Source of the DNA: Pelotomaculum sp. PtaU1.Bin035 | GTDB taxonomy: Bacteria; Bacillota; Desulfotomaculia; Desulfotomaculales; Pelotomaculaceae | Assembly (NCBI GenBank): GCA_002067965.1 | Contig: MVRN01000118.1 | Span: forward strand, 1 to 40,597 | Length of the DNA: 40,597 nt | Direction: 5' to 3' | Shown here: piece by piece, positions 8,805-27,974 of the stretch | Layout: every line of letters starts with the position of its first letter | Numbering within the stretch: position 1 is the stretch's first letter | The notes under the pieces: generated by a model | Seen by the model: only the letters and a program-made list of their open reading frames with translations | What the model was told of the DNA's origin: nothing | The model's database searches: none | Position numbers and translations under genes: made by a program

Positions 8805-9638
<834 letters not shown>

Positions 9639-9668
9639 TTCCAAATTTCTTTGTAAGGGGTGAGAACA

Positions 9669-9995
9669 TTGCTAATGATAAGGGCTATCGTCAGGCCTGA
9701 AAAAACAAACAGCATTTTGGCCGAGCTGAGCGTTTCGGGATTCCCGGCGGTGACCAAGATGGATGTGGTCGGGCGCGGCAAGCAAAGAGGGGTTAAAGTA
9801 GGGGAAATTGTTTATGCCGAGATCCCCAAAGAATTACTGATGCTGGTCGTGCAGGATGAAGATAAGGAAGATGTAATCAGCATTATTTCGAGATTGGCCA
9901 AACCAGGGGAAAAAGGAGCTTTCGGCGACGGTAAAATATTCGTCAGCCCGGTGGAAGAAGCGTATACCATCAGCAGCGGATCCAAGGGGCTGTAG
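9669..9995 (+). CDS. nifI1: Nitrogen regulatory PII-like protein NifI1
   Basis: One half of the NifI1/NifI2 pair, PII-family proteins that bind the NifDK protein and switch nitrogenase activity off when fixed nitrogen is plentiful; 2-oxoglutarate relieves this. The PII core is visible in MIRAIVRPEK, the T-loop region GRGKQRGVKVGE and the C-terminal GDGKIFVSPVEEAYTI. I choose TTG 9669, which gives MLMIRAIVRPEK like other family members and sits 8 bases after AAGGGG; the GTG at 9660 lies within that ribosome-binding site. Its position between nifH and nifD is diagnostic of archaeal and clostridial nif operons. Confidence 0.94.
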   Translation: MLMIRAIVRPEKTNSILAELSVSGFPAVTKMDVVGRGKQRGVKVGEIVYAEIPKELLMLVVQDEDKEDVISIISRLAKPGEKGAFGDGKIFVSPVEEAYTISSGSKGL

Positions 9996-10011
9996 GAGGA
10001 GCTTATATTTT

Positions 10012-10392
10012 ATGAAGGAAATTATAGCCATCATCCGTATGAACAAAGTAAATGAAACCAAGAAGGCTTTAATGGATGTCGGAATTTGCGGCCTCCATGC
10101 TGTCAAGGTAATGGGGCGGGGCAAGCTGCGGGTGGATTTTTCCATGCTGGGAGGAATCAGCATCCAGGAAGAGATCGGCGGGATTTTGGCGGATGGTTTG
10201 GCAAAGGGAAGCAGGCTCATTCCAAAACGTATGTTGACCATCCTGGTCCAGGACGGAGAAGTTGAAAAGGTGGTTAATGCTTTAATCAAAGTTAATCAAG
10301 GCGGCAATAAAGGGGACGGCAAGATTTTTGTCGCGCCCGTCCTGGATGTGGCCAGGGTTAGGACCGGTGAGCGGGGTGAAGTGGCAGTCTAG
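10012..10392 (+). CDS. nifI2: Nitrogen regulatory PII-like protein NifI2
   Basis: Partner of NifI1 in post-translational control of nitrogenase. The 126-residue sequence has the PII start KEIIAIIRMNKV, a longer T-loop region (residues about 38-65, GRGKLRVDFSMLGG) than NifI1, as is typical of NifI2, and the C-terminal GDGKIFVAPVLDVARVRTGERG. AGGAGGAG lies 11 bases before the ATG. It is 16 bases behind nifI1 and 29 bases ahead of nifD. Confidence 0.95.
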   Translation: MKEIIAIIRMNKVNETKKALMDVGICGLHAVKVMGRGKLRVDFSMLGGISIQEEIGGILADGLAKGSRLIPKRMLTILVQDGEVEKVVNALIKVNQGGNKGDGKIFVAPVLDVARVRTGERGEVAV

Positions 10393-10421
10393 GCAATAAA
10401 GCGTCGCAAGGAGGCAGGAGA

Positions 10422-12029
10422 ATGGCGATTGATCAAAAGATGCTGGAAGAAATTATCATAGGCCAGTACCCGGCAAAAGTTAAGAGGAACCGGAGAAAGC
10501 ACATCCTGATCAGGGATACCTCCCTGGCCGCGCAGGAAATTGAAGCCAACACCCGGACCATCCCGGGGATCATTACCAACCGCGGCTGCGCCTTCGCCGG
10601 CTGCAAAGGGGTGGTCCTGGGGCCGCTCCGGGACATGGTGCATATTGTCCACGGGCCGGTCGGGTGCGCTTTTTACAGCTGGCTTACCCGGCGGAATAAG
10701 GCGAAAAGCGATGATCCCGGAAAAAACTTTTTAGCTTATTGTGTGTCTACCGATATGCAGGAAGGCGACATCGTCTTCGGCGGGGAGAAAAAGCTGAACA
10801 GGATGATTGACGAAGTGGTGGAAATTTTTCATCCCAACGCGATTACGATATCAGCCACCTGCCCGGTGGGGTTAATCGGCGACGACATCCAGTCGGTTGC
10901 CAGGATGGCCCGGGAAAGGCACGGAATCAGTATCACCGCTTACAACTGTGAAGGCTATAAGGGGGTCAGCCAGTCCGCGGGCCACCACATTGCCAATAAC
11001 GGCCTGATGGAGCATGTGATCGGGCTTGGCGACATGGAAGAGCCGCCCGGCAAATTTACCATTAATATCCTGGGTGAGTACAACATCGGTGGCGACAGCT
11101 GGGAAGTCGGGAGGGTCCTGGAGGAACTTGGCTATGATGTGCAGGCGGTGATGACGGGCGACGGTTCTTTTGAAGAACTGAAAAACGCCCATGTATCGCA
11201 ATTGAACCTGGTGCAATGCCACCGGTCAATTAATTATATTGCCGATATGCTTGAAAAAAAATACGGCACGCCCTGGCTAAAAGTAAACTTCATTGGTATC
11301 CGGGCCACTTGCGAGACGCTGCGGAATATGGCCCTGTATTTCGGCGATGAATCGTTGATCCAACGGACCGAAGAAGTTATCGCCAGGGAGTTGGCCAGGA
11401 TCGAGCCGCTGCTGGAGCCATATAGAAAAATCTGCGAGGGAAAAACAGCCTTCTGTTTTGTCGGTGGGTCGCGCGGCCACCACTACCAGGGCCTGTATGA
11501 GGAGTTGGGGATTAAGACATTGCTGGCCGGTTATGAGTTCGCCCACCGCGACGATTATGAAGGGCGGCAGGTTCTTCCCAATATCAAGCCCGACGCGGAC
11601 AGCAAAAATATCCCTGAATTGCATGTCGTTCCGGACGATAGACGCTACAGGCTGAAGCTGCCGGCGGAGAAAATGGAGGAACTGAAAAGCAAGATCCCGC
11701 TGAGTTACTATAAGGGCATGATTGCGGATATGAAAGACGGCAGTGTTATTGTAGATGATTTAAACCACAAGGAAACGGAAGAACTGATCAGGATCTTGAA
11801 GCCGGATATCTTTTCCTCCGGCATAAAAGATAAATATATTCCGCAAAAAATGGGTGTTCCGGTCAAGCAGTTGCATAATTACGATTATAGCGGACCTTAC
11901 GCCGGATTCAACGGAGCTGTTAACTTTGCGAGGGACGTCAGCATGAACTTTGTCACGCCTGCCTGGAATTACATCGTGCCGCCCTGGAAGAACAAGCCTT
12001 TGTTGGAGGGGACTGTTCAGGATTCATGA
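10422..12029 (+). CDS. nifD: Nitrogenase molybdenum-iron protein alpha chain NifD
   Basis: Alpha subunit of dinitrogenase, carrying FeMo-co and half of the P cluster. P-cluster ligands are Cys56 (RGCAFAG), Cys82 (HGPVGC) and Cys147 (ATCPVG). FeMo-co ligands are Cys266 (NLVQCHRS) and His485 (KQLHNYDYSGPY). The substrate-site residues Gln184 and His188 (GVSQSAGHHIAN) are kept. The 535 residues include the insertion (about 395-450, EGRQVLPNIKPDADSKNIPE and following) found in Clostridium pasteurianum-type NifD. There is no delta-subunit gene (vnfG/anfG) behind it and it resembles clostridial NifD, so this is a molybdenum enzyme. Confidence 0.98.
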   Translation: MAIDQKMLEEIIIGQYPAKVKRNRRKHILIRDTSLAAQEIEANTRTIPGIITNRGCAFAGCKGVVLGPLRDMVHIVHGPVGCAFYSWLTRRNKAKSDDPGKNFLAYCVSTDMQEGDIVFGGEKKLNRMIDEVVEIFHPNAITISATCPVGLIGDDIQSVARMARERHGISITAYNCEGYKGVSQSAGHHIANNGLMEHVIGLGDMEEPPGKFTINILGEYNIGGDSWEVGRVLEELGYDVQAVMTGDGSFEELKNAHVSQLNLVQCHRSINYIADMLEKKYGTPWLKVNFIGIRATCETLRNMALYFGDESLIQRTEEVIARELARIEPLLEPYRKICEGKTAFCFVGGSRGHHYQGLYEELGIKTLLAGYEFAHRDDYEGRQVLPNIKPDADSKNIPELHVVPDDRRYRLKLPAEKMEELKSKIPLSYYKGMIADMKDGSVIVDDLNHKETEELIRILKPDIFSSGIKDKYIPQKMGVPVKQLHNYDYSGPYAGFNGAVNFARDVSMNFVTPAWNYIVPPWKNKPLLEGTVQDS

Positions 12030-12070
12030 TCTGTGGGTGAAGAAATAAATTATTGTGAGGAGAAAATCGT

Positions 12071-13456
12071 ATGTTAAACAGTACCCCGAAGGAATTGATT
12101 GAACGAGCGGGCGGAGCGATAAACCCCGCCAAAACTTGCCAACCCATCGGGGCTATGTACGCAGCCCTGGGGATTCACAAGTGCCTTCCCCACAGCCACG
12201 GCTCCCAGGGCTGTTGTGCCTACCACCGTTCGCACTTAACCAGGCATTTCAGGGAGCCTGTTATGGCATCCACCAGTTCCTTTACCGAAGGGGCCTCGGT
12301 GTTCGGGGGAGGGGCCAACGTGAAAACAGCTGTTAATAACGTTTTTACCATTTATAACCCCGACGTTATGGCCATTCATACCACGTGTCTTTCCGAAACT
12401 ATCGGGGATGACCTTCCTACTTACATTAAGGCGACTGAAGTGCCTGAAGGCAAGGTGGTAATCCATGCCAACACCCCCAGCTACGTGGGTTCCCATATTA
12501 CGGGATTTTCCAACATGACTAAAGCAATGGTCAGCTACCTGGCGGAAGCTTCAGAAGAAAACAAGAAAGAGCAGGCGAATATTATTCCCGGTTTTGTCAA
12601 CCCGGGGGACATGCGGGAAATAAAGAGACTGGCAAAGCACATGGGGGTTAAGTCCATAATGTTCCCCGACACCTCGGGTGTATTGGATTCACCTATTACC
12701 GGACAGTTTATGATGTATCCCAAGGGAGGCGCGAGAGTAGAAGATATCAGAGACTCGGGAAATTCAAGAATCACTCTTGCCCTGGGCAGCTACGCCTCCG
12801 CCGACGCCGCTTACCACCTTGAAAGAAAGTGCAAGGTGCGGGCTATTACCCTGAAAACGCCGATTGGAATTAAAGCCACGGATGATTTTCTGATGACCTT
12901 GCGGAGCAACTTTGTCAAAGAAATACCTTATGACCTGGAAGAAGAAAGAGGCCAGCTGGTGGATATTATGACCGACACCCACTATCATTTTTATGATAAA
13001 AAAGTAGCCGTCTTCGGTGATCCGGATATCGTGGCGGCAACGGCCGAATTTTTACTGAGCCTTGGTATGAGGCCGGTCCACGTCCTGACCGGGACGCCCG
13101 GCGGGGTGACGGGCGCTTCGGCGGGCGGCTTTGAAAGAGAAGTCAAAGAAATGCTGGATCAGTCCGGGGTCCAGGCCAATATCAAGGCCGGCGGCGATTT
13201 GTTTTTGCTGCACCAATGGATAAAAAACGAACCGGTGGATTTATTAATCGGAAATACCTATGGCAAATACATCGCCAGGGCGGAAGACCTGCCCTTTGTG
13301 CGGCTGGGCTTTCCCATCCTGGACAGGAGCATGCATCCCTACCTGCCGATAGTCGGCTACAAAGGCGCAATGCGGTTGCTTGAATTGATCGGAAACGCGC
13401 TTTTGGACAGGGTGGACCGTGACGCGAGCGATGAGGACTTTGAGTTGGTCATGTAA
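12071..13456 (+). CDS. nifK: Nitrogenase molybdenum-iron protein beta chain NifK
   Basis: Beta subunit of dinitrogenase; it shares the P cluster with NifD. The P-cluster ligands are Cys23 (PAKTCQPIG), Cys48 (GSQGC) and Cys106 (HTTCLSETIGDD), with the supplementary ligand Ser137 (NTPSYVGSH). At 461 residues it lacks the N-terminal extension of proteobacterial NifK, as expected for group III nitrogenases. TGAGGAGAAAATCGT precedes the ATG. The gene lies 41 bases after nifD and 12 bases before nifE. Confidence 0.98.
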   Translation: MLNSTPKELIERAGGAINPAKTCQPIGAMYAALGIHKCLPHSHGSQGCCAYHRSHLTRHFREPVMASTSSFTEGASVFGGGANVKTAVNNVFTIYNPDVMAIHTTCLSETIGDDLPTYIKATEVPEGKVVIHANTPSYVGSHITGFSNMTKAMVSYLAEASEENKKEQANIIPGFVNPGDMREIKRLAKHMGVKSIMFPDTSGVLDSPITGQFMMYPKGGARVEDIRDSGNSRITLALGSYASADAAYHLERKCKVRAITLKTPIGIKATDDFLMTLRSNFVKEIPYDLEEERGQLVDIMTDTHYHFYDKKVAVFGDPDIVAATAEFLLSLGMRPVHVLTGTPGGVTGASAGGFEREVKEMLDQSGVQANIKAGGDLFLLHQWIKNEPVDLLIGNTYGKYIARAEDLPFVRLGFPILDRSMHPYLPIVGYKGAMRLLELIGNALLDRVDRDASDEDFELVM

Positions 13457-13468
13457 TCTTCAGGCAAT

Positions 13469-14824
13469 ATGGAAGAAATGGAAGTGGTTTTGTTGACTGG
13501 GCTGCCGATTGAGGAAAGAAGAGATTTTATCCTTACGAAAGGAAAACAAAAAAGGCAACTGAAGTGTGATGCCGACAGCGTGGCGGGCTCGGTCAGCCAG
13601 CGGGCTTGTGTTTATTGCGGCGCCAGAGTGGTTTTAAACCCTGTAACGGACGCGGTCCACCTGGTGCACGGGCCTATCGGGTGCGCCAGCTACACCTGGG
13701 ATATCCGGGGCAGCTTGAGCAGCGGGGCCGACTTGTACCGGAACAGCTTTTCCACCGACCTGAAGGAGCACGATATAATTTTCGGCGGGGAAAAGAAGCT
13801 TGCCAGGGCCATTGACGAGTTGGTGCGAAAATATCGTCCCAAACTGGTATTTGTCTATTCAACCTGTATTGTCGGAGTTATCGGCGATGATCTGGAAGCA
13901 GTATGCAAAGCTGCTTCAGGAAAACACGGGATCGAAGTCATTCCGGTGCAGTCCAGCGGTTTTATCGGAAATAAGTCGGCAGGCTACCGGGCCGCCTGTG
14001 ACGCGCTGATGCGCCTGATCGAGCCCGGGGAAAAGAAATATGTTATAAAAAGTAAAAATATTAATTACTTAGGTGACTTTAATCTGGCGGGAGAGGCCTG
14101 GATTATTAAAAGATACTTGAGCCGGATGGGGGTCGATATTAATGTTGTTTTTACCGGGGACTCAAGCTACGCGGCTTTAAAAAAGGCTGCCGGGGCGTCT
14201 TTAAATATAATCCAGTGCGCCGGCTCAATGATTTATTTGGCTAGCCGGATGGAGGAAAATTACGGTATCCCATATATGAACGTGTCTTTTGTGGGCATCG
14301 AAGATACGTCCAATTCTCTGAGAAATATAGCGAAGGCCTTCAATGATCCGGAAATGGCGTATAAGGCCGAACAGTTAATTGAGCATGAGACGGCATTGGT
14401 TAAACCCGCAATTCAGCGTTATCGTGAAAAGCTTGAGGGTAAAAAAGCGGCCGTTTATGTCGGCGGCGGGTTTAAAGCGGTTTCCCTGATCAAACAATTT
14501 AAAGAAATCGGCATTGATGTGGTAATGATCGGGACTCAGACGGGACGGCCGGAAGATTATCGAAGGATCGGCGACCTGGTGGATGACGGGACGGTAATCC
14601 TGGATGACGCGAATCCCGCCGAGTTGGAGAAATTCATGCTTGAAAAGGGCGCCGATTTATTGGTAGGCGGGGTGAAAGAAAGGCCCCTGGCCTATAAATT
14701 GGGTATTGCTTTCATAGACCACAACCATAACCGGAAGCACCCGCTCAGCGGTTTTATCGGCGCTGTAAATTTCGCGGAAGAAGTATATGCCACTGTTTGT
14801 TCCCCGGTTTGGAACTATATATAA
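13469..14824 (+). CDS. nifE: Nitrogenase FeMo-cofactor assembly scaffold NifE
   Basis: NifE with NifN forms the scaffold on which the NifB product (NifB-co) is matured to FeMo-co before transfer to NifDK. The 451-residue protein is a NifD homologue with the cluster-binding cysteines in RACVYCGAR (Cys47, Cys50), HGPIGC (Cys72) and YSTCIVGVIGDD (Cys133). The ATG at 13469 has only a weak upstream AGG; ATG 13478 is a possible alternative. The end overlaps nothing, and nifN begins 20 bases after the stop. Confidence 0.96.
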   Translation: MEEMEVVLLTGLPIEERRDFILTKGKQKRQLKCDADSVAGSVSQRACVYCGARVVLNPVTDAVHLVHGPIGCASYTWDIRGSLSSGADLYRNSFSTDLKEHDIIFGGEKKLARAIDELVRKYRPKLVFVYSTCIVGVIGDDLEAVCKAASGKHGIEVIPVQSSGFIGNKSAGYRAACDALMRLIEPGEKKYVIKSKNINYLGDFNLAGEAWIIKRYLSRMGVDINVVFTGDSSYAALKKAAGASLNIIQCAGSMIYLASRMEENYGIPYMNVSFVGIEDTSNSLRNIAKAFNDPEMAYKAEQLIEHETALVKPAIQRYREKLEGKKAAVYVGGGFKAVSLIKQFKEIGIDVVMIGTQTGRPEDYRRIGDLVDDGTVILDDANPAELEKFMLEKGADLLVGGVKERPLAYKLGIAFIDHNHNRKHPLSGFIGAVNFAEEVYATVCSPVWNYI

Positions 14825-14844
14825 AAGCTAAAGAGGGGATAACA

Positions 14845-16239
14845 ATGAAGGACAACACGTCCTACCGTTATGCGAATGAAAACCCGTGCAATATGTGTAT
14901 GCCCATGGGCGGGATTATCTCATTCAAAGGCGTGGAAAAGTCCATGGTGATCATCCATGGCTCCCAGGGCTGCAGCACATACATGCGCCGGCACATTGCC
15001 GAACACTTTAACGAACCGGTCGACGTGGCCTCCTCTTCGCTTAATGAGAAGGGCACCATTTACGGCGGGGAAAACAACTTGAGAAAAGGTTTGGACAATT
15101 TAATCAAGTTATACAATCCCGGGCTAATCGGCGTGCTGACGACCTGTCTGGCTGAAACAATTGGTGAAGATATCGAAAGGATTACGTCGGATTACCTTAA
15201 GGACAGAGGGCTGACGGACTTGCCCGTGGTTGCGGTGTCCACTCCCGGTTACGGCGGCACGCATACGGAAGGTTATTTTCTGGCGTTAAAAAAGATTATA
15301 TACAGGCTGGCCGGCAAGGCGGGGAAGAATTCCCGGATCAATATAATAGTTCCCAGCCTGAGCCCGGCTGATATCCGGGAAATAAAAAGGATCCTTCATG
15401 TTATGGATGTCGACTGTATCCTTTTCCCTGATTACTCCGACACTCTGGACCGCCCCTTTGAGAGGCCTTATAAAAAGGTTCCTGATGGTGGGACCAGGCT
15501 GGCGGATATCGCCATGATGCCGGGCGCCGCGGCAACTATCCAGATGGGCGTTACGGCGGGTGACAATATTTCACCAGGCGGGTACTTGGAAAGTCATTTC
15601 GGAGTCCCTTTATACAACCTGCCCATACCTATGGGTATCGAAAATACAGACTTATTTGTTGAAACGTTGAAAAATCTAACCGGCAACGACGTGCCTGAAA
15701 ACCTGCGGCAAGAGAGAGGCAGGCTCCTGGACTGCATGGTCGACTCTCATAAATATAACTTCGAGGGTAGGAGCGTTGTTTTTGGTGAGCCGGAAAATGT
15801 GTATGCGATTGTTAAGACTTGCCTGGAAAACGGAATTGAGCCGGTAGTGGTTGCGACCGGCGGCAAGTCGAACAAACTGACTGAGTTGCTCAAGTCATGT
15901 TTAAATGGATGCCGTGGCAATGTGCATTTTTTAGATGAAACGGACTTTTCAGAAATTAGGGAAAAGAGCAAGGAGTCGGCTGCGAATATTGCGATTGGCC
16001 ATTCCGACGGCAGGTACCTGACTGAAAGAGAGGGTATTCCCCTGGTGCGGCACGGTTTTCCCATTCATGACCGGGTGGGGGGGCAAAGGTTGCTGTCGGT
16101 GGGGTACCTCGGCACCACCATGTTTCTGGACAGAATTACCAATACCTTGCTGGAAAATAAATATGGCAGCTACCGGAGCAATATGTATCAAAAGTTTTAT
16201 CAAAACACCGGCGATAATCCTTTGCAAACTATGAGGTGA
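14845..16239 (+). CDS. nifN: Nitrogenase FeMo-cofactor assembly scaffold NifN
   Basis: Partner of NifE and NifK-like in fold. The 464-residue protein shows ENPCNMCMPMGG (Cys15, Cys18), HGSQGCSTYMRRH and LTTCLAETIGED, the NifK-type cluster-region motifs. I start it at ATG 14845 with AGAGGGG 8 bases upstream; a longer frame to TTG 14797 would overlap nifE and add residues unlike NifN. The last codon overlaps the region of the nifB ribosome-binding site, so nifN and nifB are probably translationally coupled. Confidence 0.95.
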   Translation: MKDNTSYRYANENPCNMCMPMGGIISFKGVEKSMVIIHGSQGCSTYMRRHIAEHFNEPVDVASSSLNEKGTIYGGENNLRKGLDNLIKLYNPGLIGVLTTCLAETIGEDIERITSDYLKDRGLTDLPVVAVSTPGYGGTHTEGYFLALKKIIYRLAGKAGKNSRINIIVPSLSPADIREIKRILHVMDVDCILFPDYSDTLDRPFERPYKKVPDGGTRLADIAMMPGAAATIQMGVTAGDNISPGGYLESHFGVPLYNLPIPMGIENTDLFVETLKNLTGNDVPENLRQERGRLLDCMVDSHKYNFEGRSVVFGEPENVYAIVKTCLENGIEPVVVATGGKSNKLTELLKSCLNGCRGNVHFLDETDFSEIREKSKESAANIAIGHSDGRYLTEREGIPLVRHGFPIHDRVGGQRLLSVGYLGTTMFLDRITNTLLENKYGSYRSNMYQKFYQNTGDNPLQTMR

Positions 16240-16244
16240 TGGAA

Positions 16245-17276
16245 ATGGATTGCTGCAATATTTCTTTGTCGGAACAAACTGGCAGGCACCCGTGCTATTC
16301 CTTTGACGCCCACCTTAAGTTTGCCAGGATGCACCTGCCTGTGGCGCCTCTCTGCAATATAAGCTGCAATTACTGCAATAGGAAATTTGATTGTTTAAAC
16401 GAAAGCAGGCTGGGTGTAACCAGTGAGGTCCTGTCGCCTGAGTCGGCGGCGCAAAAATATGATTTTGTTAAGAAAAAAATTCATAACTTAAGCGTTGCCG
16501 GTATTGCCGGACCGGGAGACGCGCTGGCCAATTGGCAAGAAAGCAGGCGGACTATAGAGCTGATCAGGCAGTCCGACCCCGATGTACTGTTCTGTTTATC
16601 CACGAATGGGTTGATGCTGCCGGAATATGCCAAGGAAATTATCCGCCTGGGCGTCAAACATGTGACCGTTACTGTAAACTGCCTTATCCCCGAAATAGGA
16701 CAAAGAATATATAAGTTTGTGAATTATCAGGGAAAAAAATATGAAGGTGTCCAGGGCGCCGGCATACTTATGGAAAACCAGTCGGCCGGTATACAGCGCC
16801 TCGTCCGGGGAGGGGCGGCGGTAAAAATAAATATCGTGATGATAAAAGGCATCAATGACCGGCATATCCCGGATGTTGTAAAGAAAGTAAAAGAACTGGG
16901 CGCTTTTATCACCAACATTATGCCGCTGATACCGGCTCAGGGGAGCGCCTTTGAAGGCCTGCCCCAGACTAACATGAAAGAAATAAACCATATGAGAGAC
17001 GTCTGCCGGGCCGACCTCCGGCAAATGCGCCATTGCAGGCAATGCAGGGCTGATGCCGTCGGTATGTTGGAACACGACCGGTCATTGGAATTTCGAAGGG
17101 TGTGGGAGGAAAAAGAAGCCAATACAGATAGTAAGCAAGGCCCTGCGGTTTCACTAAGAGCGGGCTATAACGCCAGAAAAAGGCAGAAAAATAATATTCT
17201 CAGTGTTGAGTGTTACGATACTGTGGAAAACGCGTTGAAGCACGCGGCCGGAATCTTACATGACAAGGAGTGGTGA
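16245..17276 (+). CDS. nifB: Nitrogenase cofactor biosynthesis radical SAM protein NifB
   Basis: NifB fuses two [4Fe-4S] clusters and inserts a carbide from S-adenosylmethionine to make NifB-co, the core of FeMo-co. The 343-residue protein has the HPC motif (Cys17), the radical SAM CxxxCxxC (Cys37, Cys41, Cys44 in CNISCNYC), the glycine motif AGPGDALAN, and the C-terminal CRQC motif (Cys264, Cys267) with RADAVG, which supplies K-cluster ligands. It has no NifX-like C-terminal domain, only a short basic tail. Start chosen at ATG 16245, 5 bases after GAGGTGA; ATG 16239 and GTG 16236 are alternatives. Confidence 0.97.
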   Translation: MDCCNISLSEQTGRHPCYSFDAHLKFARMHLPVAPLCNISCNYCNRKFDCLNESRLGVTSEVLSPESAAQKYDFVKKKIHNLSVAGIAGPGDALANWQESRRTIELIRQSDPDVLFCLSTNGLMLPEYAKEIIRLGVKHVTVTVNCLIPEIGQRIYKFVNYQGKKYEGVQGAGILMENQSAGIQRLVRGGAAVKINIVMIKGINDRHIPDVVKKVKELGAFITNIMPLIPAQGSAFEGLPQTNMKEINHMRDVCRADLRQMRHCRQCRADAVGMLEHDRSLEFRRVWEEKEANTDSKQGPAVSLRAGYNARKRQKNNILSVECYDTVENALKHAAGILHDKEW

Positions 17277-17283
17277 TGATAAA

Positions 17284-17601
17284 TTGAACAAGCCCAAATA
17301 CCATGTTTTTGTTTGTACCAGTTCCAGGGTTAATGGTCAGCAAAAAGGCTTTTGCCATACAAAATCGTCAGTCGGCATTGTAAGCAGTTTTATGGAAGAA
17401 ATTGAAGGCAGGGGACTCGGCGGCGAGGTTGCGATATCTAATACAGGATGTTTCGGACTTTGCGAGAGAGGGCCGGTGGTGGTCGTCTACCCGGATAATG
17501 TCTGGTATGGCGGGGTAACGGACAGCGACGTGGAAGAGATCATGGACGAACATATCGAAGGCGGTAAAGCGGTAAAACGATTGGAGCTGTCAAGCAGCTA
17601 A
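17284..17601 (+). CDS. Thioredoxin-like [2Fe-2S] ferredoxin
   Basis: A 105-residue protein of the thioredoxin-fold [2Fe-2S] ferredoxin family, known from Clostridium pasteurianum and Azotobacter, where it is linked to nitrogen fixation. The cluster ligands are Cys11 (FVCTSSR), Cys24 (GFCHTK), Cys56 and Cys60 (NTGCFGLCERGP). The TTG at 17284 gives the typical MNKPKYHVFVCTSSR start; a longer frame begins at ATG 17260 inside nifB but has no ribosome-binding site. It starts 7 bases after nifB and may donate electrons to, or protect, nitrogenase. Confidence 0.93.
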   Translation: MNKPKYHVFVCTSSRVNGQQKGFCHTKSSVGIVSSFMEEIEGRGLGGEVAISNTGCFGLCERGPVVVVYPDNVWYGGVTDSDVEEIMDEHIEGGKAVKRLELSSS

Positions 17602-17614
17602 AATAAGGAGGCAA

Positions 17615-17656
17615 ATGGCGGACATGAGCCCGTTGGCAAGCGCCATATACACCTGA
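17615..17656 (+). CDS. Possible 13-codon leader peptide
   Basis: An ideal AAGGAGG is followed five bases later by ATG 17615 and a 13-codon frame (MADMSPLASAIYT, then TGA). A small TGGC/GCCA hairpin lies inside it, and the AnfO-like gene begins 35 bases after the stop. It could be a true small peptide or the remains of a larger gene. Evidence is limited to the ribosome-binding site. Confidence 0.3.
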   Translation: MADMSPLASAIYT

Positions 17657-17691
17657 ACAAATTTGGCAGCCGCGTAAGGAGAGTAGTTTTT

Positions 17692-18321
17692 ATGCGTAGA
17701 AGTATCGCGGTATACGTCGGGGAAAATGGTGAGACCACGTCGCTGTTCAACCAAGGTAGACTGGTTGTTTATCAGAAAAAGAAGGGCAAATGGAGTTCCA
17801 TGAAAGAAATGGACTTTTCCCCGGACGGAAGCCGGGGTATTAAAGAACTGCGTAAAAAGATGGAAGAAGTATTGGAATTCTTGGGCAACTGCAGGGTAAT
17901 CGTAGGGCTGTCGATAACCGGTGTGCCTTATTATGAGCTGGAAAAATGCCGCTTTAGTGTTTGGGAATTTGAGGGGAGACCCTTGGAGTTTCTGGACTAC
18001 GTCCTTGAAAAAGAGGAAGAAAAGCAAAGTCTGGAGGATGCTGAGCAAAACGCCTGCTTGCGGTTTATTCCAATTGAAACATCAAGCGGCAACTATCAGA
18101 TTTCAATTAAGGAAATCCAGGAAAAAGATATTGGGCTCACCACAAAACAAGTGCTGCTGCCGGTTTTGCGCAAAGGCAACTTTAATTCACTGGAAGTTAT
18201 TTGCAGCCATGTGCCCCCCTGGCTTGAAGCCGGGCTGTTAAGCAATTGCTACTGTGGGGAAATTAAAAAAAATAATAATGATGTCAGGGTCATTTTAACC
18301 GGTAGAGTTATACCAAGCTGA
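17692..18321 (+). CDS. anfO: AnfO-like nitrogenase accessory protein
   Basis: The 209-residue protein matches what I know of the AnfO family (Fe-only nitrogenase accessory protein): the start IAVYVGENGET, the segment GRLVVYQKKKGKW, a helical KELRKKMEEVLEFLG stretch, then GVPYYELEKCRFSVWEFEG and LDYVLEKEEEK. AnfO proteins are normally encoded behind anfHDGK and are needed for full activity of the iron-only enzyme; their biochemical role is not settled. Here it follows a molybdenum nif operon with no anfD, anfG or anfK in the window. AAGGAGAG lies 8 bases before the ATG. The C-terminal half is less similar in my memory of the family. Confidence 0.8.
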   Translation: MRRSIAVYVGENGETTSLFNQGRLVVYQKKKGKWSSMKEMDFSPDGSRGIKELRKKMEEVLEFLGNCRVIVGLSITGVPYYELEKCRFSVWEFEGRPLEFLDYVLEKEEEKQSLEDAEQNACLRFIPIETSSGNYQISIKEIQEKDIGLTTKQVLLPVLRKGNFNSLEVICSHVPPWLEAGLLSNCYCGEIKKNNNDVRVILTGRVIPS

Positions 18322-18359
18322 CTGGTAAACAGGATTATTTTTCACAACATGCAGTGAAT

Positions 18360-18444
18360 TTTAATAGCCGCGCCCGGTCAGGATGGAATGGAAGTTTATC
18401 TTCTAAACCATATGGCGTCCGAACCCGGTGTAGCGGCTATTAAA
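18360..18444 (+). ncRNA. Highly folded intergenic RNA or palindromic element
   Basis: A perfect 12-bp stem (TTTAATAGCCGC at 18360-18371 with GCGGCTATTAAA at 18433-18444) closes an 85-base element. Inside are CCGG/CCGG (18374-18377 with 18425-18428), GGATG/CGTCC (18381-18385 with 18416-18420) and an apical GTTTA/TAAAC stem with loop TCTTC. It has no T tract. It lies 38 bases after the AnfO-like gene and 161 bases before the NifB paralogue. I could not match it to a known riboswitch; it may be a structured RNA or a small non-autonomous repeat. Confidence 0.45.
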
Positions 18445-18451
18445 TTTAAAG

Positions 18452-18518
18452 TCAGTAGTCAGAATACTGTTAGAAAACAAGCTGTTTGTTTATTCCGGCT
18501 TCTGAATTCTGACTCCTG
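18452..18518. repeat. Imperfect palindromic repeat with GAATTCTGACTCCTG arm
   Basis: The left arm CAGTAGTCAGAATACTG is an imperfect reverse complement of the right arm CTGAATTCTGACTCCTG (18502-18518), with a small AAACA/TGTTT hairpin between them. The right arm recurs near 34713. In both places a TATAAT follows (here 18531-18536), so the repeat may carry or sit beside a promoter for the NifB paralogue. Confidence 0.5.
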
Positions 18519-18605
18519 CGTAAAAATAATTATAATGAAAAACATGTTGGCATTCAATTTCTGGTGATGAATCGAGTTTCCGGAGAGGGGAGGTTGCTAA
18601 GCAAA

Positions 18606-19385
18606 ATGGTCTGTGACGCGAAATCAGCTGTTAGTCAGCATCCGTGTTTCAACCATGCCGCGAGAAGATGGTTTTCCTGTGTGCATCTGCCGGTGGCGAT
18701 CAGCTGTAATATAAAGTGCCGCTACTGCTCCAGGGAATACGCTTGCGTTAATGAAAACTATAAAAAAGCAGCCGGAAAAACTGTATCACAGCGTGAGGCG
18801 TTAAAAAAAATGAACAATTATATAAAAAATTGTGAGAGGGTCCGCGTTGTCGGTGTCGCGGGTCCCGGGGAACCGCTGGCGAACAAGGAAACCATCGAAG
18901 TCCTCACCAAGGTCAACTCGCATTATCCTCATCTTGTCAAGTGTGTCTGCACCAATGGCCTGATGCTTGAAGATAACCTGCATGCGCTTTTGGACGCGGG
19001 CGTCAAGACAATTGCTGTAACGGTTAATGCGGTAGACCCCGCGATAGGAGGGGAGATTTATCGCTGGGTCTTTTATAAAAATAAACCGTACCATGGAACC
19101 ATAGGAGCCTGCTTATTATTGGAAAAGCAACTAGCCGGGATTAGGGAGGCAAAGAAAAGCGGCATTATGGTAAAAGTCAACTCAATATTAATCCCGGGCA
19201 TCAACGATTTTCACTTGAGAGAAGTAGCTATTGCCGTAAAAGAAGCCGGCGCATTTGTCATGAACATAGTGCCAATCGTGCCTCAAGCGGAATTTTCTTT
19301 AATCCAGCCGCCCGGCAGCCAGTTGTTGCGGCAGGCTAAAGAAGAGATCGAACCGATAATCCACTTGGCTGAAAGCTGCAGGTAA
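18606..19385 (+). CDS. NifB-like radical SAM protein, C-terminally short
   Basis: Paralogue of NifB. It keeps the SQHPC motif, the radical SAM cysteines CNIKCRYC, the following CVNEN segment, the AGPGEPLAN glycine motif and the VTVNAVDPAIGGEIYRWV region that matches NifB. It ends at AESCR, exactly where NifB reads RHCRQCRADAVG, so the second cysteine of the C-terminal CRQC motif and everything beyond is missing. That motif holds K-cluster ligands in NifB. Either a truncated relic or a variant with another role. I prefer ATG 18606 (259 residues), 13 bases after GGGGAGG; GTG 18564 is the longest alternative. Confidence 0.85.
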   Translation: MVCDAKSAVSQHPCFNHAARRWFSCVHLPVAISCNIKCRYCSREYACVNENYKKAAGKTVSQREALKKMNNYIKNCERVRVVGVAGPGEPLANKETIEVLTKVNSHYPHLVKCVCTNGLMLEDNLHALLDAGVKTIAVTVNAVDPAIGGEIYRWVFYKNKPYHGTIGACLLLEKQLAGIREAKKSGIMVKVNSILIPGINDFHLREVAIAVKEAGAFVMNIVPIVPQAEFSLIQPPGSQLLRQAKEEIEPIIHLAESCR

Positions 19386-21762: not shown

Positions 21763-23919
21763 GTGACTGGGCAGATTGCATTAAAAGTGGCCAAGGCCCT
21801 GGGCAAGGACGTAGGCAGGTGTATTGCCAGGATTGATCCAGCCGACATCCAGGCGCTGGGGCTGGATGTCGGGGATCTGGTGGCCATTGGTCCCGAACGC
21901 CGGACAGCCGCCCGGGTCATGCCTGCCTACGCTGAGTACAGGGGCAATAAATTGCTCCAAATCGACGGTATTATCAGGGAAAACGCCGGTGTGTCCCTGG
22001 GCGAAATGGTTCCGGTCAGCAGTGTGGCCGGCCGGACCGCCAAAAAAATAACCTTGTCTCCCATTGGCGCCGGGCACACCCCGCAATTGGACGCTGCATT
22101 TATCAGCCGCTCGTTGCAAGGAATGCCCTTGGCTAAGGGGGACAAGGTGCGCATTTCGGTGTTAGGTCTGAGAAACCAGGAATTCCTGGTCAAGGATACT
22201 GTACCCGAAGGATTTGTACTGCTGAAAAAAGACACCTTGCTGGAGCTGCTTCAGACAAAAGAAGCAGGGTCTGTTAAGGCCAACCAAATCACCTATGAGG
22301 ATATCGGTGGCATGGGCAAGGAACTGGGGCGGATCCGGGAAATGATCGAACTGCCTCTAAAATACCCGGCCGTCTTTCAGCACCTGGGTATCGATCCGCC
22401 GAAGGGGGTATTGCTGTGCGGCCCGCCGGGCACAGGAAAAACGCTGATCGCGCGGGCGGTGGCCAATGAAGCCAACGTATACTTTTTACCCGTCAACGGG
22501 CCGGAGGTAATCCATAAGTACTACGGTGAAAGCGAGGCCAAGTTGCGGGAAATTTTTGATAAGGCTGCCAAAAAGGGCCGCAGCATTATTTTCCTGGATG
22601 AAATAGACGCCATTGCACCCAAGCGGGTGGAGGTCACCGGCGAAGTCGAAAAGCGGGTGGTGGCCCAGTTGCTCGCATTGATGGACGGCCTGGCCTCCCG
22701 CGGCCAGGTGATCGTTATAGCGGCCACCAACATACCGGATTCTTTAGACCCCGCCTTGCGCCGCCCCGGCCGCTTCGACCGGGAAATAACCATCGGCGTG
22801 CCTGACCAGAAGGGGCGGCTGGAGATTCTGCAAATACATACCCGGGGCATGCCCTTGGAAGACGGCGTGGATCTGGAACGGGTGGCGGAATTAACCGGCG
22901 GGTTCGTAGGGGCGGATCTGCTCGCTCTTTGCCGGGAGTCAGCCATGCATCGTTTAAGAAAAATTATGCCCAATTTGGATCTGGATCCGGAATCGGGAGG
23001 GTTGCCTCCCGAATTGCTGGCCCGGCTGCGGGTGTCCATGCAGGATTTCTTGCAGGCGTTGGAAGAAGTGGAGCCGTCGGCTACCAGGGAATTTCTGGTA
23101 GAGGTGCCCAATGTAGGCTGGGAGGACGTAGGGGGATTGGATGGGATCAAGCAGCACCTGCGTGAAACTATTGAATGGCCCTTGAAATATGCGGAGCTTT
23201 TCGGCCGCGCCGGGGCCCAAGCGCCTCGGGGGATCCTTTTGTACGGGCCGCCCGGTACGGGTAAAACGCTGCTGGCCAAGGCGGTGGCCAACGAATCCAA
23301 CGCCAACTTCATTTCGATTAAAGGCCCGGCACTGTTGTCCAAGTGGGTGGGGGAATCGGAAAGGGCAGTGCGGGAGGTTTTTCGCAAGGCTCGCCAGGCG
23401 GCCCCATGTATCGTTTTTTTCGATGAAATAGACGCGGTGGTCGCTTCCCGGGGAATGGGTGGCGGAGCCGCGGCCGAACGCGTGTTAAGCCAGTTATTGA
23501 CTGAGATGGACGGTATAGAGGAATTGCGGCGAGTGGTGGTGCTGGGGGCGACCAACCGGCTGGACATGATCGACTCGGCTCTGCTGCGCCCGGGCCGGTT
23601 TGACTTGCAGTTGCAGCTGGAACTGCCGGATAAGGCTTCCCGCCGGCAAATCCTGGCCGTACACGCGCACACCAGGAAAAAGCCTGTGTCGGAAGACGTG
23701 GATTTGGACTCTCTGGCTGGTGAAACAGCAGGTTTTTCCGGCGCGGATATCCGCCACTTGTGCAACCGGGCGGCCCTGGCCGCGGTGCGGGAATACCTGG
23801 CTCAAAATTCCTGGCAGTCGCAGGGACCTCCGGCCGTACAGATCCGCAACGAGCACTTCCGCTTGGCCCTGGCGGAAATCGGGCCGCGGGTGCCGCGGGG
23901 CGGCCCGGATCCGGCTTGA
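21763..23919 (+). CDS. CDC48/VAT-type double AAA ATPase
   Basis: The 718-residue protein has the full CDC48 (p97/VAT) architecture: an N-terminal double-psi-barrel/CDC48_2-like substrate domain (about 1-175, starting [18 protein letters not shown]), then AAA domains D1 and D2. Each has Walker A GPPGTGKT (about 220 and 495) and Walker B ([20 protein letters not shown]), with D1 and D2 second-region motifs RRPGRFDRE and LRPGRFD. Members unfold proteins or disassemble complexes. It sits 57 bases after gvpH and before a GvpJ-like gene, so a role in gas vesicle assembly or turnover is inferred. Start is GTG 21763. Confidence 0.93.
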
Positions 23920-24028: not shown

Positions 24029-24406
24029 ATGGTGACAGGGCTGCAACCGAAGAAGAAAAGAGACGAGGACACGCTGGTTGTGCTGGTCGACCGCCTGCTT
24101 GACAAAGGCCTGGTGATCAACGCCGATATCCTGGTGTCTGTGGCAGGTGTGGAGCTGCTGGGCTTAAAAATAAGGGCGGCCCTGGCTTCCTTTGAGACGG
24201 CGGCCCGGTATGGCCTGGAATTTCCCTCCGGCACCAGTATTGAAACCGCCGCCTGGAAAGACGCCCGGATCGAAAGAGAAAGCTGCCCGCAATGTGAAAA
24301 GCGGGTGGCCAAGGAAGAACTTCTTACCGAGGGATGCCCGTGGTGCGGATGGATTTCAGCCAAGGCGAAAAAACGCATGGAAACTATGGCGTCTTTGCCG
24401 GTATAG
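24029..24406 (+). CDS. GvpJ-like gas vesicle protein with C-terminal zinc ribbon
   Basis: A 125-residue protein. Residues about 15-62 (LVVLVDRLLDKGLVINADIL, then VAGVELLGLKIRAALAS) align with the GvpA/GvpJ/GvpM shell-protein core. The tail holds a four-cysteine zinc-ribbon motif, CPQC...CPWCGW (about 87-107), then KAKKRM. GvpJ-type proteins are minor shell parts thought to nucleate vesicles. The zinc ribbon is not a standard part of this family. It shares the whole plan with the larger protein at 26448-27482, which has an insertion between the two parts. Confidence 0.85.
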   Translation: MVTGLQPKKKRDEDTLVVLVDRLLDKGLVINADILVSVAGVELLGLKIRAALASFETAARYGLEFPSGTSIETAAWKDARIERESCPQCEKRVAKEELLTEGCPWCGWISAKAKKRMETMASLPV

Positions 24407-24446: not shown

Positions 24447-24878
24447 ATGAAGCGATTTCTGGACGCTCTGGATTGCCGGAGCCGGGCCGTCTGGTGGCAC
24501 TTGTGCTGCCATGGCCACGCCGGTGTCACCGGCCTGGCCCGGGTGGCAGGCCTGGATAGCGACATGGAAGTTTTACTTTCCATCCGCCAAGTTATCAACC
24601 CTGCGGCTATAGACATCCTGGGCGAGCCGGCAGTGGAATTTGCCTCCTGCCGGGTAGATCAAGGCACTGGTGAAAAAATACATTATCATTGGTGGCTTAG
24701 GCCTGTCGTTTGGTCACCGCCGCCCGGGCGCCTGCCGCTGGTGGATGTGTTTGAAACCGGCAGTGAGCTTGTTATAATTGTTGATCCCGGCGACAGGGTG
24801 GAATCCTCTCATCCGGAGGTAACCTGCCGGAACGGTATCGTGATGATCAAAATTGACCGTTCGGGAAACCGGCAGTAA
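24447..24878 (+). CDS. Hypothetical gas-vesicle-cluster protein, possible Hsp20-like C terminus
   Basis: I do not recognise this 143-residue protein. The N-terminal half has clustered Trp, Cys and His residues (VWWHLCCHGHAG; HYHWWLRPVVW). The C-terminal part, PLVDVFETGSELVIIVDPGD and later CRNGIVMIKID, resembles the strands of the alpha-crystallin domain seen in GvpH upstream, but is shorter. It lies between the GvpJ-zinc ribbon gene and gvpK in the same direction, so a gas-vesicle role is likely by context only. Confidence 0.6.
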   Translation: MKRFLDALDCRSRAVWWHLCCHGHAGVTGLARVAGLDSDMEVLLSIRQVINPAAIDILGEPAVEFASCRVDQGTGEKIHYHWWLRPVVWSPPPGRLPLVDVFETGSELVIIVDPGDRVESSHPEVTCRNGIVMIKIDRSGNRQ

Positions 24879-24910: not shown

Positions 24911-25222
24911 GTGGCCCTGGAAATCAGTGAGGACAATTTAAAGCACGGTTTGCTCGGGCTGGTCATCGCTCTGGTGGAGATCATCAAGGACGCGTTGAAA
25001 ATGCAGGCCGTGGCGCGCATGGAAGACGGCAGTCTGGAAGAGTGTGAAATAGAGCGGTTGGGCCGGGCATTACTGGACTTAGACCGGGCGATTGACGAGA
25101 TTAAATGTGAGCAAGGGATAACCGAGTCGGTAAAAAGCGTCCGGGACGGCCTGGACAGGATCGTGAACGACGTGGTGGACCGGCTCCTTAATCCCCGGCG
25201 GTGGGCAGAAGAAGCAGAATAA
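24911..25222 (+). CDS. gvpK: Gas vesicle protein GvpK
   Basis: A 103-residue, mostly helical protein matching GvpK: LKHGLLGLVIALVEIIKDAL at the start, then EECEIERLGRALLDLD and the C-terminal VNDVVDRLLNP. GvpK is essential for gas vesicle formation in several bacteria and is thought to act early in assembly; its mechanism is unclear. The start is GTG 24911. The gvpL start follows 11 bases after the stop. Confidence 0.93.
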   Translation: MALEISEDNLKHGLLGLVIALVEIIKDALKMQAVARMEDGSLEECEIERLGRALLDLDRAIDEIKCEQGITESVKSVRDGLDRIVNDVVDRLLNPRRWAEEAE

Positions 25223-25233
25223 GGGGTGGGGAA

Positions 25234-26400
25234 ATGGATTTCCGGGTGGATGGCGGTTCAAACAGCGTGACGGAACAGCCCGTGCCGGTGATGATTTCAC
25301 TGGCGCGCCTGCTGGTCAAGCGTGAATTGGAAAGACTTGGCCTGGAGAAAGAATTGCAGGCGGTTGCACAAGACGTTGCACGGGATATTATACAGTCGAC
25401 CGTTCGGGATGCTGTCCGCGTTGTGCTGGATGAAATGGCCGGCGATAAGGTAAAGCCAGCTTTGCTGGAGCGGCAGGATGGTGTGCCGGCAGCCTTAAGC
25501 CAGGTCCCTCAAGTATCGATGGAACCCTGTGAATCCACCAATCCGGCAATATTTCCGCCAGTGCCGGAGCGTCAAATAAGCGCTTCGCTGCCTGGGGAAC
25601 AATTGTTTGCGGGCGGTGGGCCGGCGGGCCTGTACATATACGGCGTGGCCATGGGAGAAGAGGAAATAGATCTGGATGCCGCAGGTATTGACGGATGCCG
25701 GGTATATACCCTGTCCGCCGCCGGCTTATGCGCAGTGGTGCATGATTGTTCCGCCGAGCCCTACCGGCCGGATAATGACGAGCATGCGAAAGGATGGCTG
25801 TTTGAGCACCAGGATGTATTGGACCGGGTAAAAGAGATGCTTGGCGATGTCCTGCCGATGGGCTTTAATACTATTATGCACGCTGCCGGCCGCCGGCCGC
25901 AAGAGGTGCTGCGGGACTGGCTGGCGCGGGAAAGCAGCCGGCTGAAAGCGATGCTCGGCCGCCTGCGGGATAAAGAGGAATATGCCGTTAAAATTCTTTT
26001 GACTGAAGAAATTTTAAAGCAGGCAGCCCTGCGTGAAGACAGCCGCCTGCAAGAGCTGCAGCGGGAGTTGAACGATAAGCCGGAAGGAGTACGCTATCTT
26101 TACCGGGAAAGGTTGGAAAAATCAGTAAAGGAAGCCCTGGAAGACATAGTGGAAATTTATTTCAGGAAGGCCTACCAGGCAATACGTCCTTCATGCGCTG
26201 ATATTCAAGTGGAAAAAACAAAGCGGGTTTCACCTGAAAAACGTATTATAGCCAACCTGTCCTGTCTGGTGGAGAAAAGCAAGGTAACGGAATTGGGTGA
26301 GACACTGGCGGAAATTGAACGGTGGGAAGGGTTTACTGTAGATTTTACAGGTCCCTGGCCGCCTTACAGCTTTGTCGGTGAACTGGCTGTTCCAGCCTGA
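25234..26400 (+). CDS. gvpL: Gas vesicle protein GvpL/GvpF family with long N-terminal extension
   Basis: The C-terminal 255 residues (from about 130, AGLYIYGVAMG) are a GvpF/GvpL domain, ending with the family signature FTGPWPPYSFV. GvpF and GvpL are assembly factors that bind GvpA and the other accessory proteins. The first 130 residues are an extra part: a helical, charged stretch (ISLARLLVKRELERLGLEKE and a DAVRVVLDEMAGD helix) and a Pro/Ser-rich linker. I start at ATG 25234, with AAGGGGTGGGG upstream. A second, ordinary-length member lies at 30202. Confidence 0.9.
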   Translation: MDFRVDGGSNSVTEQPVPVMISLARLLVKRELERLGLEKELQAVAQDVARDIIQSTVRDAVRVVLDEMAGDKVKPALLERQDGVPAALSQVPQVSMEPCESTNPAIFPPVPERQISASLPGEQLFAGGGPAGLYIYGVAMGEEEIDLDAAGIDGCRVYTLSAAGLCAVVHDCSAEPYRPDNDEHAKGWLFEHQDVLDRVKEMLGDVLPMGFNTIMHAAGRRPQEVLRDWLARESSRLKAMLGRLRDKEEYAVKILLTEEILKQAALREDSRLQELQRELNDKPEGVRYLYRERLEKSVKEALEDIVEIYFRKAYQAIRPSCADIQVEKTKRVSPEKRIIANLSCLVEKSKVTELGETLAEIERWEGFTVDFTGPWPPYSFVGELAVPA

Positions 26401-26447: not shown

Positions 26448-27482
26448 GTGGGAGAAAGCACAAACATGAAACCTGTGAGCCGGCGGGAAGCCACGCTGAA
26501 TGATCTCATCGACCGGGTTTTAATTAAAGGGTTGATGTTGCATAGCGACGTGGTAGTTACCGTATCCGGCATCCCTCTGCTGGGATTGAATTTGCGCCTG
26601 GCACTGGCCGGTATGTCCACCATGCTGCGCTACGGTTTTATGACGGACTGGGACGAGGTTATACGGTCTTCGGTTCAAAAAGAGCGGGCGGTGGAGGGCC
26701 CGCGCCTGGAAGAGGGGGAACGGGTGCTCCTTTCCCGGTTTGGTTCCTGCTGGTTTGGCCGGGGTATTTATTCTGCCTGGCAGCCGGGTTTGATCTACCT
26801 TACCGACAGACGCCTGCTGCTCCACAGGCAGGAACCGGAGGAAACGCTTCTGGATATAAGCTTGGGGCTTGTCAGCGGTATAGATACCCGGCAGGAGCCT
26901 CACTTCAGCGGCCGGGAAAGGAAAGAGATCCTGCTTACCCTGGTTTCGGGCGGTGAAGTGAGGCTGCACAGCGCTGATTGCGGTCAGCTGTTGGCCGCCC
27001 TGGAAAAGGTCTGTATCCCGGCAGTACAGAAAAGCAAAGAATTGCCGGAACCGGGCAATCACGAAAAGATCTGGTTTTTGGCGCCGGACAGGACGGGTAA
27101 ATATGCCTGGGTGCCAGGTGAATTTTCCGTCAAGGAAGGTAGCCTGTGCTGGCGGGGTCATACCGGACCGGGAGCGTCGTTACGGGTGGCTGCGGCCGAT
27201 GTGCTGGCGGTCCGGTTTATCGATGGAGAAACTATGAGCGGCCCGGACGGTGGTCCGGTAATAGAGGTGCGTTACCTGGGCCGGCTTAGTCCGGAAAGTT
27301 TTTACTTTTCCGGTTTAGTAGAAGTATTGCAGCCGTGGGTCTCCCTGCTCAGAGAAGCACGCCGCGACGTCCTGGAAACTTGTCCGTCTTGCGGTTCTCC
27401 CGCTCCCGCCAACCGGCTGATCAATAAGGGCTGTGCCGCCTGCGGCTGGGTCAGCGCCCGGTTTAAGCGGCGTTTACCCTAG
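26448..27482 (+). CDS. GvpJ-like protein with inserted PH/GRAM-like region and zinc ribbon
   Basis: A 344-residue multidomain protein. Residues about 16-64 are a GvpA/J-type core (LNDLIDRVLIKGLMLHSDVV, then VSGIPLLGLNLRLALAG). Residues about 85-160 contain LIYLTDRRLLLHRQEPEETL, typical of a PH/GRAM-like fold; a related second segment around 205-290 (VKEGSLCWRGH, VLAVRFIDG) may be another copy. The C terminus is a zinc ribbon, CPSC...CAACGW, then ARFKRRLP. The ends match the 125-residue protein at 24029, so the middle is an insertion. It may tether vesicle nuclei to a membrane or protein surface (inference). GTG start at 26448. Confidence 0.85.
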   Translation: MGESTNMKPVSRREATLNDLIDRVLIKGLMLHSDVVVTVSGIPLLGLNLRLALAGMSTMLRYGFMTDWDEVIRSSVQKERAVEGPRLEEGERVLLSRFGSCWFGRGIYSAWQPGLIYLTDRRLLLHRQEPEETLLDISLGLVSGIDTRQEPHFSGRERKEILLTLVSGGEVRLHSADCGQLLAALEKVCIPAVQKSKELPEPGNHEKIWFLAPDRTGKYAWVPGEFSVKEGSLCWRGHTGPGASLRVAAADVLAVRFIDGETMSGPDGGPVIEVRYLGRLSPESFYFSGLVEVLQPWVSLLREARRDVLETCPSCGSPAPANRLINKGCAACGWVSARFKRRLP

Positions 27483-27614: not shown

Positions 27615-27974
27615 ATGGAAGAAAATCAAACAGAAGTTTCTTATCTGGAGGAAGTTTCAGAAATCTTAAGCAAGCTGAGACCCCAATTTAGAATGGATCG
27701 TGGTTGTAAGACCGGCAACGGCAAAGTCGGAGAAAGTATCTTTGCCTTTAGCCCAAAAGGTCGGTATTACTGGGTGGTAATTGTGTGCGGCACCGGATCC
27801 TTTGCTTACAAGCATATAACACCGGAATGGATAGAGATTTATTCCAATCTGATACTTTTATCTTCAGAAGTATTTGTTGAATGGAATATAAATCACTATA
27901 TCACTAATTGGGCGGTAGAACAGGACAAAATCTGCGAATTTTATCTTAAAGAAGAAAAAGTGCGGGCAGTATAA
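27615..27974 (+). CDS. Hypothetical protein in gas-vesicle cluster
   Basis: I do not recognise this 119-residue acidic protein. It shows a helical start (YLEEVSEILSKLRPQF), then a beta-rich middle (GRYYWVVIVCGTGSFAYKHI) and a hydrophobic ILLSSEVFVEW stretch. GGAGG sits 13 bases before the ATG. The flanking intergenic stretches (132 bases before, 274 after) set it apart from its neighbours, so it may be its own transcript. It marks the change from GC-rich to AT-rich genes. Confidence 0.6.
   Translation: MEENQTEVSYLEEVSEILSKLRPQFRMDRGCKTGNGKVGESIFAFSPKGRYYWVVIVCGTGSFAYKHITPEWIEIYSNLILLSSEVFVEWNINHYITNWAVEQDKICEFYLKEEKVRAV

Follow-up and report, generated by a model that had tools for sequence, protein, structure and literature searches.

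A GvpM-type gas vesicle protein with a predicted tandem PH/GRAM and zinc-ribbon arm in Bacillota

The gas vesicle (gvp) cluster of Pelotomaculum sp. PtaU1.Bin035 encodes a version of GvpM, a known essential gas vesicle subunit, with a conserved C-terminal arm that is undescribed in the open-access literature searched; in some related genomes a small PH-like protein, likewise undescribed, is encoded beside it. The cluster lies on contig MVRN01000118.1, whose stretch of 40,597 nucleotides is hereafter called the window. The gene of the long GvpM (26448–27482, forward strand, as are its domains and the genes given below from gvpJ to gvpL) consists of one uninterrupted reading frame, 344 codons long, with a GTG start at 26448, a stop ending at 27482 and an alternative in-frame ATG start at 26466. 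Its identification is based on the intact 344-aa ORF, the existence of whole-length orthologs, its place in the GvpM clade and its position after gvpL. An arm of about 265 residues, consisting of two predicted PH/GRAM-type domains (PH1 and PH2) and a zinc ribbon, follows a core of about 80 residues.

Domain organisation of the long GvpM

The core (residues 7–78, 26466–26681) belongs to the GvpA family, as the Pfam Gas_vesicle model (PF00741) matches residues 16–54 with an E-value of 1.1e-10 and 41.9 bits against a gathering score of 25; no other Pfam model matched the long GvpM of the window above its cut-off. Among the NCBIfam models GvpM (3.8e-22) is far ahead of GvpJ (9.5e-9) and is the best model overall, at 77.8 bits against a cut-off of 109 that is set for haloarchaeal proteins. 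A tree built on 76 cores, taken from this genome and its relatives, places GvpA, the ribbon-bearing GvpJ and GvpM in separate groups, with the long proteins in the GvpM group, and in a tree of 18 cores the split between GvpJ and GvpM is supported at 100/100, while the inner branching order of these trees, built from few alignment columns, is weak. Monophyly of the long GvpM cores, tested against the nesting of a short core from a relative (G044) among them, gave a p-AU of 0.079. The long gvpM directly follows gvpL in the window and in relatives, with a small PH-like gene between the two in four genomes. Owing to the tree and to this gene order the core is assigned to the GvpM type. The initial annotation had described a GvpJ-like protein with a GvpA/J-type core; membership of the GvpA family holds, whereas a GvpJ identity is excluded by the same two lines of evidence, and the cluster has its own GvpJ at 24029–24406.

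The first arm domain, PH1 (residues 84–192, 26697–27023), contains the segment LIYLTDRRLLL, in which a GRAM-like motif had been noticed. Modelled alone with AlphaFold2 (residues 83–196), it forms seven strands and a C-terminal helix, with a pLDDT of 74 and a pTM of 0.70. In structural comparison with VIA-align the model is closest to a Leishmania domain (4tyz, Z 12.5), followed by the human (Z 12.4) and yeast (Z 12.3) Vps36 GLUE/PH domains. The AlphaFold2 model of the full-length protein, computed with two sequences as input, is poor (pLDDT 40), and within it residues 206–309 are nevertheless folded as seven strands and a C-terminal helix at a local pLDDT of about 53–74. This second domain, PH2 (residues 207–309, 27066–27374), corresponds to a further similar segment that had been considered probable, and when its model was compared with the PDB, domains of the PH superfold ranked at the top (best Z 11.5, the PH-GRAM domain of MTMR6). 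The linker between the two domains (residues 193–206, 27024–27065) varies freely, with 7–64% identity between orthologs.

A sequence search of the PDB with the window protein or with a profile of the PH region returned no PH relative, and the kinship was found by comparison of folds and through orthologs. The window protein itself stays below the Pfam PH cut-offs (0.26 for Vps36-GLUE with the whole protein, 0.22 for bPH_3 with the middle part), while four orthologs (G459, G814, G1016 and G1002) reach cut-offs of PH-type families. The clearest is G1016, with 26.8 bits for bPH_3 (cut-off 23), 27.9 for GRAM (23.6) and 33.6 for Vps36 (24.1); bPH_3 scores 25.0 bits in G814 and 24.0 in the isolated PH1 of G459. 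The profiles of PH1 and PH2 align with each other at an hhalign probability of 96%, against 0.3% for the reversed control. The models, the Pfam matches of the orthologs and the alignment of the two profiles together indicate that both GRAM-like segments are real. Each domain is thus predicted to adopt the PH/GRAM superfold, a seven-stranded barrel capped by a C-terminal helix, an assignment which for PH2 is backed by the GRAM match in G1016. An aromatic β1–β2 hairpin of PH1 (W, G-I-Y, W, G) is kept in the Bacillota orthologs, and with net charges from -5 to +5, mostly near 0, the PH domains are not basic overall. A search of 41 close relatives for bPH_3 proteins as possible donors of the arm found none at 1e-5.

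The C-terminus of the long GvpM (residues 310–341, 27375–27470) carries a CPxC-x13-CxxC motif (312–333; CPSC...CAAC in the window) with cysteines at positions 312, 315, 329 and 332, in agreement with the zinc ribbon proposed there. The GvpJ of the window also ends in such a ribbon (ESCPQC...GCPWCGWISAKAKKR), and the two share the longer motif CPxC-x13-CxxCGW-S. An HMM of the GvpJ ribbon picks up the ribbons of full-length GvpMs at 2.4e-10 to 3.5e-9, with the next unrelated ORF at 0.35, and the two ribbon profiles align at 98.8% in hhalign. The GvpM ribbon, a predicted zinc ribbon with four conserved cysteines, is therefore classed as homologous to the GvpJ ribbon of the same cluster. Since a joint profile clearly matches only GvpJ and GvpM in six whole genomes (next match 0.008), the ribbon looks specific to gas vesicles and common to two GvpA paralogs. 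It is kept in all long orthologs except that of Streptomyces, and in one genome, G743, it lies in another frame. On GvpJ, the C-terminal ribbon is widespread in Bacillota clusters, across the order and beyond, and also occurs on a Streptomyces plasmid; no description of it was found in the literature.

The PH pair had been interpreted as an insertion in GvpJ; it is instead a C-terminal extension that lies between core and ribbon. That core, two PH/GRAM-like domains and ribbon all belong to one protein, as originally read, is borne out by the intact ORF and by the whole-length orthologs. A chance fusion of unrelated genes, or a decaying frame, would be suggested by G743, where the ribbon is out of frame and the cluster looks degraded. 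However, the frame runs uninterrupted in the window, as it does in seven further Bacillota genomes, and whole-length orthologs exist. Every domain is under purifying selection, with a dN/dS that stays below 0.6 in each pair that could be measured (core 0.06–0.14, PH1 0.21–0.29, PH2 0.32–0.56, ribbon 0.11–0.50). A mis-joined or decaying gene is thus scarcely credible, and for the window gene a chance fusion is ruled out by the intact orthologs and by selection. The core changes more slowly than PH2 and the linker.

The gvp cluster and distribution of the long form

Upstream of the long gvpM the window encodes, in this order, a 125-aa GvpJ with a C-terminal zinc ribbon (24029–24406; PF00741 2e-13, NCBIfam GvpJ 6.5e-27, ribbon profile), a weakly Hsp20-like protein of 143 aa (24447–24878; NCBIfam Hsp20 at 0.014 only, conserved beside gvpJ and gvpK), GvpK (24911–25222; PF05121 5.3e-17) and GvpL (25201–26400; PF06386 2e-60 at residues 143–392). 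GvpL has an N-terminal extension of about 140 residues (25201–25625) that has no Pfam match and a similar counterpart in relatives. The block from gvpJ through the Hsp20-like gene, gvpK and gvpL, with or without the small PH-like gene, to gvpM is conserved across the clusters with the long form, and is found in relatives such as G044 with a short GvpM. No accessory protein is exclusive to the long form, and G044 keeps GvpJ, the Hsp20-like protein, GvpK, GvpL and a CDC48-type ATPase.

In G459, G814, G1016 and G1002 a separate ORF of 115–131 aa between gvpL and the long gvpM (L081:10095-10490 in G459, with matching stretches in the other three genomes, L122, L123 and L124) resembles both PH1 and PH2. 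Its profile aligns with them at 95% and 92%, respectively, in hhalign, with reversed controls below 1%. This small PH/GRAM-like protein is possibly a new accessory gas vesicle protein.

Several other genes accompany the cluster. A CDC48/VCP-type double AAA+ ATPase (21763–23919) is encoded within it and recurs in most related clusters, in several of which its gene directly follows gvpM. Between gvpM and gvpA lies a 119-aa ORF of no known family (27615–27974), which G003, G005 and G013 also have in their clusters and which was not found in the stretch from G011. A nitrogenase-like (nif) cluster at 8820–19385, recognised by reading of the sequence only, adjoins the gvp cluster and includes two ORFs read as NifB-like radical SAM proteins (16236–17276 and 18564–19385).

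Nine Bacillota genomes, from spore-forming anaerobes, carry the long GvpM, and a form that lacks the ribbon is encoded on one Streptomyces plasmid. Within the same family it is carried by the window genome (G000), G003, G005 and G011, with whole-length orthologs at 62–69% identity, and the protein of G003 is also encoded on a contig of Pelotomaculum propionicicum (L029). In the whole order (113 genomes) the middle region occurs only in these four, a survey in which the G013 cluster stops at a contig end before gvpM and the G016 assembly is 64% complete. G459 came from a sample of 398 genomes of the phylum, and G743, G814, G1002 and G1016 from further searches; the long GvpMs obtained in this way share 33–37% identity with the window protein, and four genomes outside the family have whole-length orthologs at 35–37%. 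On the plasmid of Streptomyces sp. SGAir0924 (NZ_CP027299.1) a ribbon-bearing GvpJ is followed by a 303-aa protein annotated as GvpJ, in which a GvpM-type core precedes a region aligning with PH1 and PH2 at about 30% identity. Viral contigs and phages yielded no relatives.

Two further long frames were rejected as read-throughs: a 346-aa frame in G104, where a GvpA-like remnant runs into GvpF, and a 308-aa frame in G181, where non-coding sequence precedes a short GvpM. The gvp cluster of G743 (L095) looks degraded, with gvpJ and the Hsp20-like gene broken up and no gvpL found nearby. In G044 (L086:3500-5200) the short GvpM, nested among the long ones in the tree, has an unrelated tail, and sequence resembling a tyrosine recombinase remnant (by eye) lies downstream of it, near tRNA-like genes; it is possible that the arm was lost here through an insertion event.

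Possible roles of the arm

The GvpA-like core of the long GvpM may join the vesicle nucleus or cone tip as a minor subunit, a placement modelled on proposals for other GvpA paralogs, with the arm of two PH/GRAM-type domains and a GvpJ-type ribbon pointing to the cytoplasmic side. There the arm would dock protein partners, of which the likeliest are GvpJ with its twin ribbon, the Hsp20-like protein, GvpK and GvpL, and in four genomes the small PH-like protein; it would thus be a built-in platform assembling the nucleation complex. A docking platform on the cytoplasmic side, serving an accessory complex at the nucleus or tip, is the reading of the arm to which we give an even chance. With a charge close to neutral, the PH domains are no less suited to docking proteins than to binding lipids. 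Halobacterium cannot form vesicles without GvpM and GvpJ, both of which bind GvpL and further accessory proteins (PMC8716928). Vesicle formation there does not depend on the last 25 residues of GvpM, which nevertheless make contact with GvpF, GvpH and GvpL (PMC8716928), and the GvpM C-terminus is hence a plausible site for a docking module. In Bacillus, the interaction of GvpA2 with GvpL is mediated by GvpS, GvpK and GvpJ, and GvpJ and GvpS have been proposed to lie at vesicle tips (PMC11445434). Clusters with a short GvpM, such as that of G044, keep GvpJ, the Hsp20-like protein, GvpK, GvpL and the ATPase, and the arm is therefore not needed for the complex common to both.

The initial annotation had proposed an anchoring of vesicle nuclei to a membrane, polyphosphate granule, spore or nucleoid. 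PH/GRAM folds often bind membranes, and the PH arm might alternatively anchor the nucleus, and hence the vesicle, to a cell structure such as the forespore/exosporium membrane or the cell membrane, in the manner of the 'gas caps' of clostridial spores; we hold this to be a tentative reading of rather low probability. It would accord with the conserved aromatic hairpin of PH1 and with the presence of SpoIVA in all six Bacillota carriers tested, although SpoIVA is also present in G044, whose GvpM is short. Gas vacuoles of Desulfotomaculum acetoxidans lie adjacent to spores (PMC3035247), vesicles of Sporohalobacter lortetii stay attached to them, and those of Orenia are located between the exosporium membrane and the coat (PMC4187190). 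However, classical binding of acidic lipids is not favoured by PH domains that lack a basic charge, and the PH region is also present in the form on the plasmid of Streptomyces, a genus without endospores, which speaks against a role confined to endospores. No conserved sporulation promoter was found upstream of gvpA, where boxes resembling those of sigma-K occur in two genomes only (G011 and G005). The fuller version, in which a nucleation protein would tie vesicles to the forespore, spore or cell membrane through its tandem PH/GRAM and ribbon arm, with the small PH-like protein as part of the same tether, is judged unlikely; if true, it would be a molecular tether of a kind not described for gas vesicles before. 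A purely steric role, in which an arm of this bulk caps rib growth at the tip or sets its pace and so controls vesicle size or shape with no dedicated ligand, would suit the disproportion between arm and core as well as the faster change of PH2 and the linker, but the conserved PH1 hairpin and ribbon suggest specific contacts, and such a role seems quite improbable.

With its modular arm, which we favour as a docking platform, the long GvpM lends itself as a bait with which to find partners of the nucleation complex, and the arm could reveal to which parts of the cell gas vesicles attach. It also allows a direct test of the old observation of gas vesicles attached to the spores of some anaerobes. 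That a protein of the shell family can carry so large an extension may be useful for engineering vesicles as imaging agents.

Comparison with known systems

In the open-access literature searched 'gas vesicle' was not found joined with 'GRAM domain' or 'zinc ribbon', and a study of an Antarctic Chlorobium population reportedly names both 'gas vesicle' and 'pleckstrin homology', with one mention each. The earlier statement that no gas vesicle protein of this build had been described thus stands within that literature, and the build extends beyond one organism. The Vps36 GLUE domain, the myotubularin PH-GRAM domain and bacterial bPH_3 share with the arm domains their fold and the profile matches of the orthologs; we know of no link of these families to gas vesicles, and their ligands (phosphoinositides, ubiquitin) are, to our knowledge, not to be expected in these bacteria.

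Among gas vesicle proteins, the GvpM of Halobacterium salinarum (83–84 aa) resembles the window protein in its GvpM-type core, in the position of its gene beside gvpL and as its best NCBIfam match; unlike the long GvpM it has about 84 residues and neither PH domains nor a ribbon (PMC8716928). It is also the best plasmid match of the 303-aa Streptomyces protein (48%). The latter shares with the window protein both the core and the PH1/PH2-aligned region, and differs in its lack of a ribbon, its annotation as GvpJ and its setting, an annotated stretch with only J, M, K and L genes. The ribbon-bearing GvpJ of the window and of many Bacillota, in turn, has a core of the GvpJ type and no PH domains, and shares with the long GvpM a GvpA-family core and the homologous ribbon.
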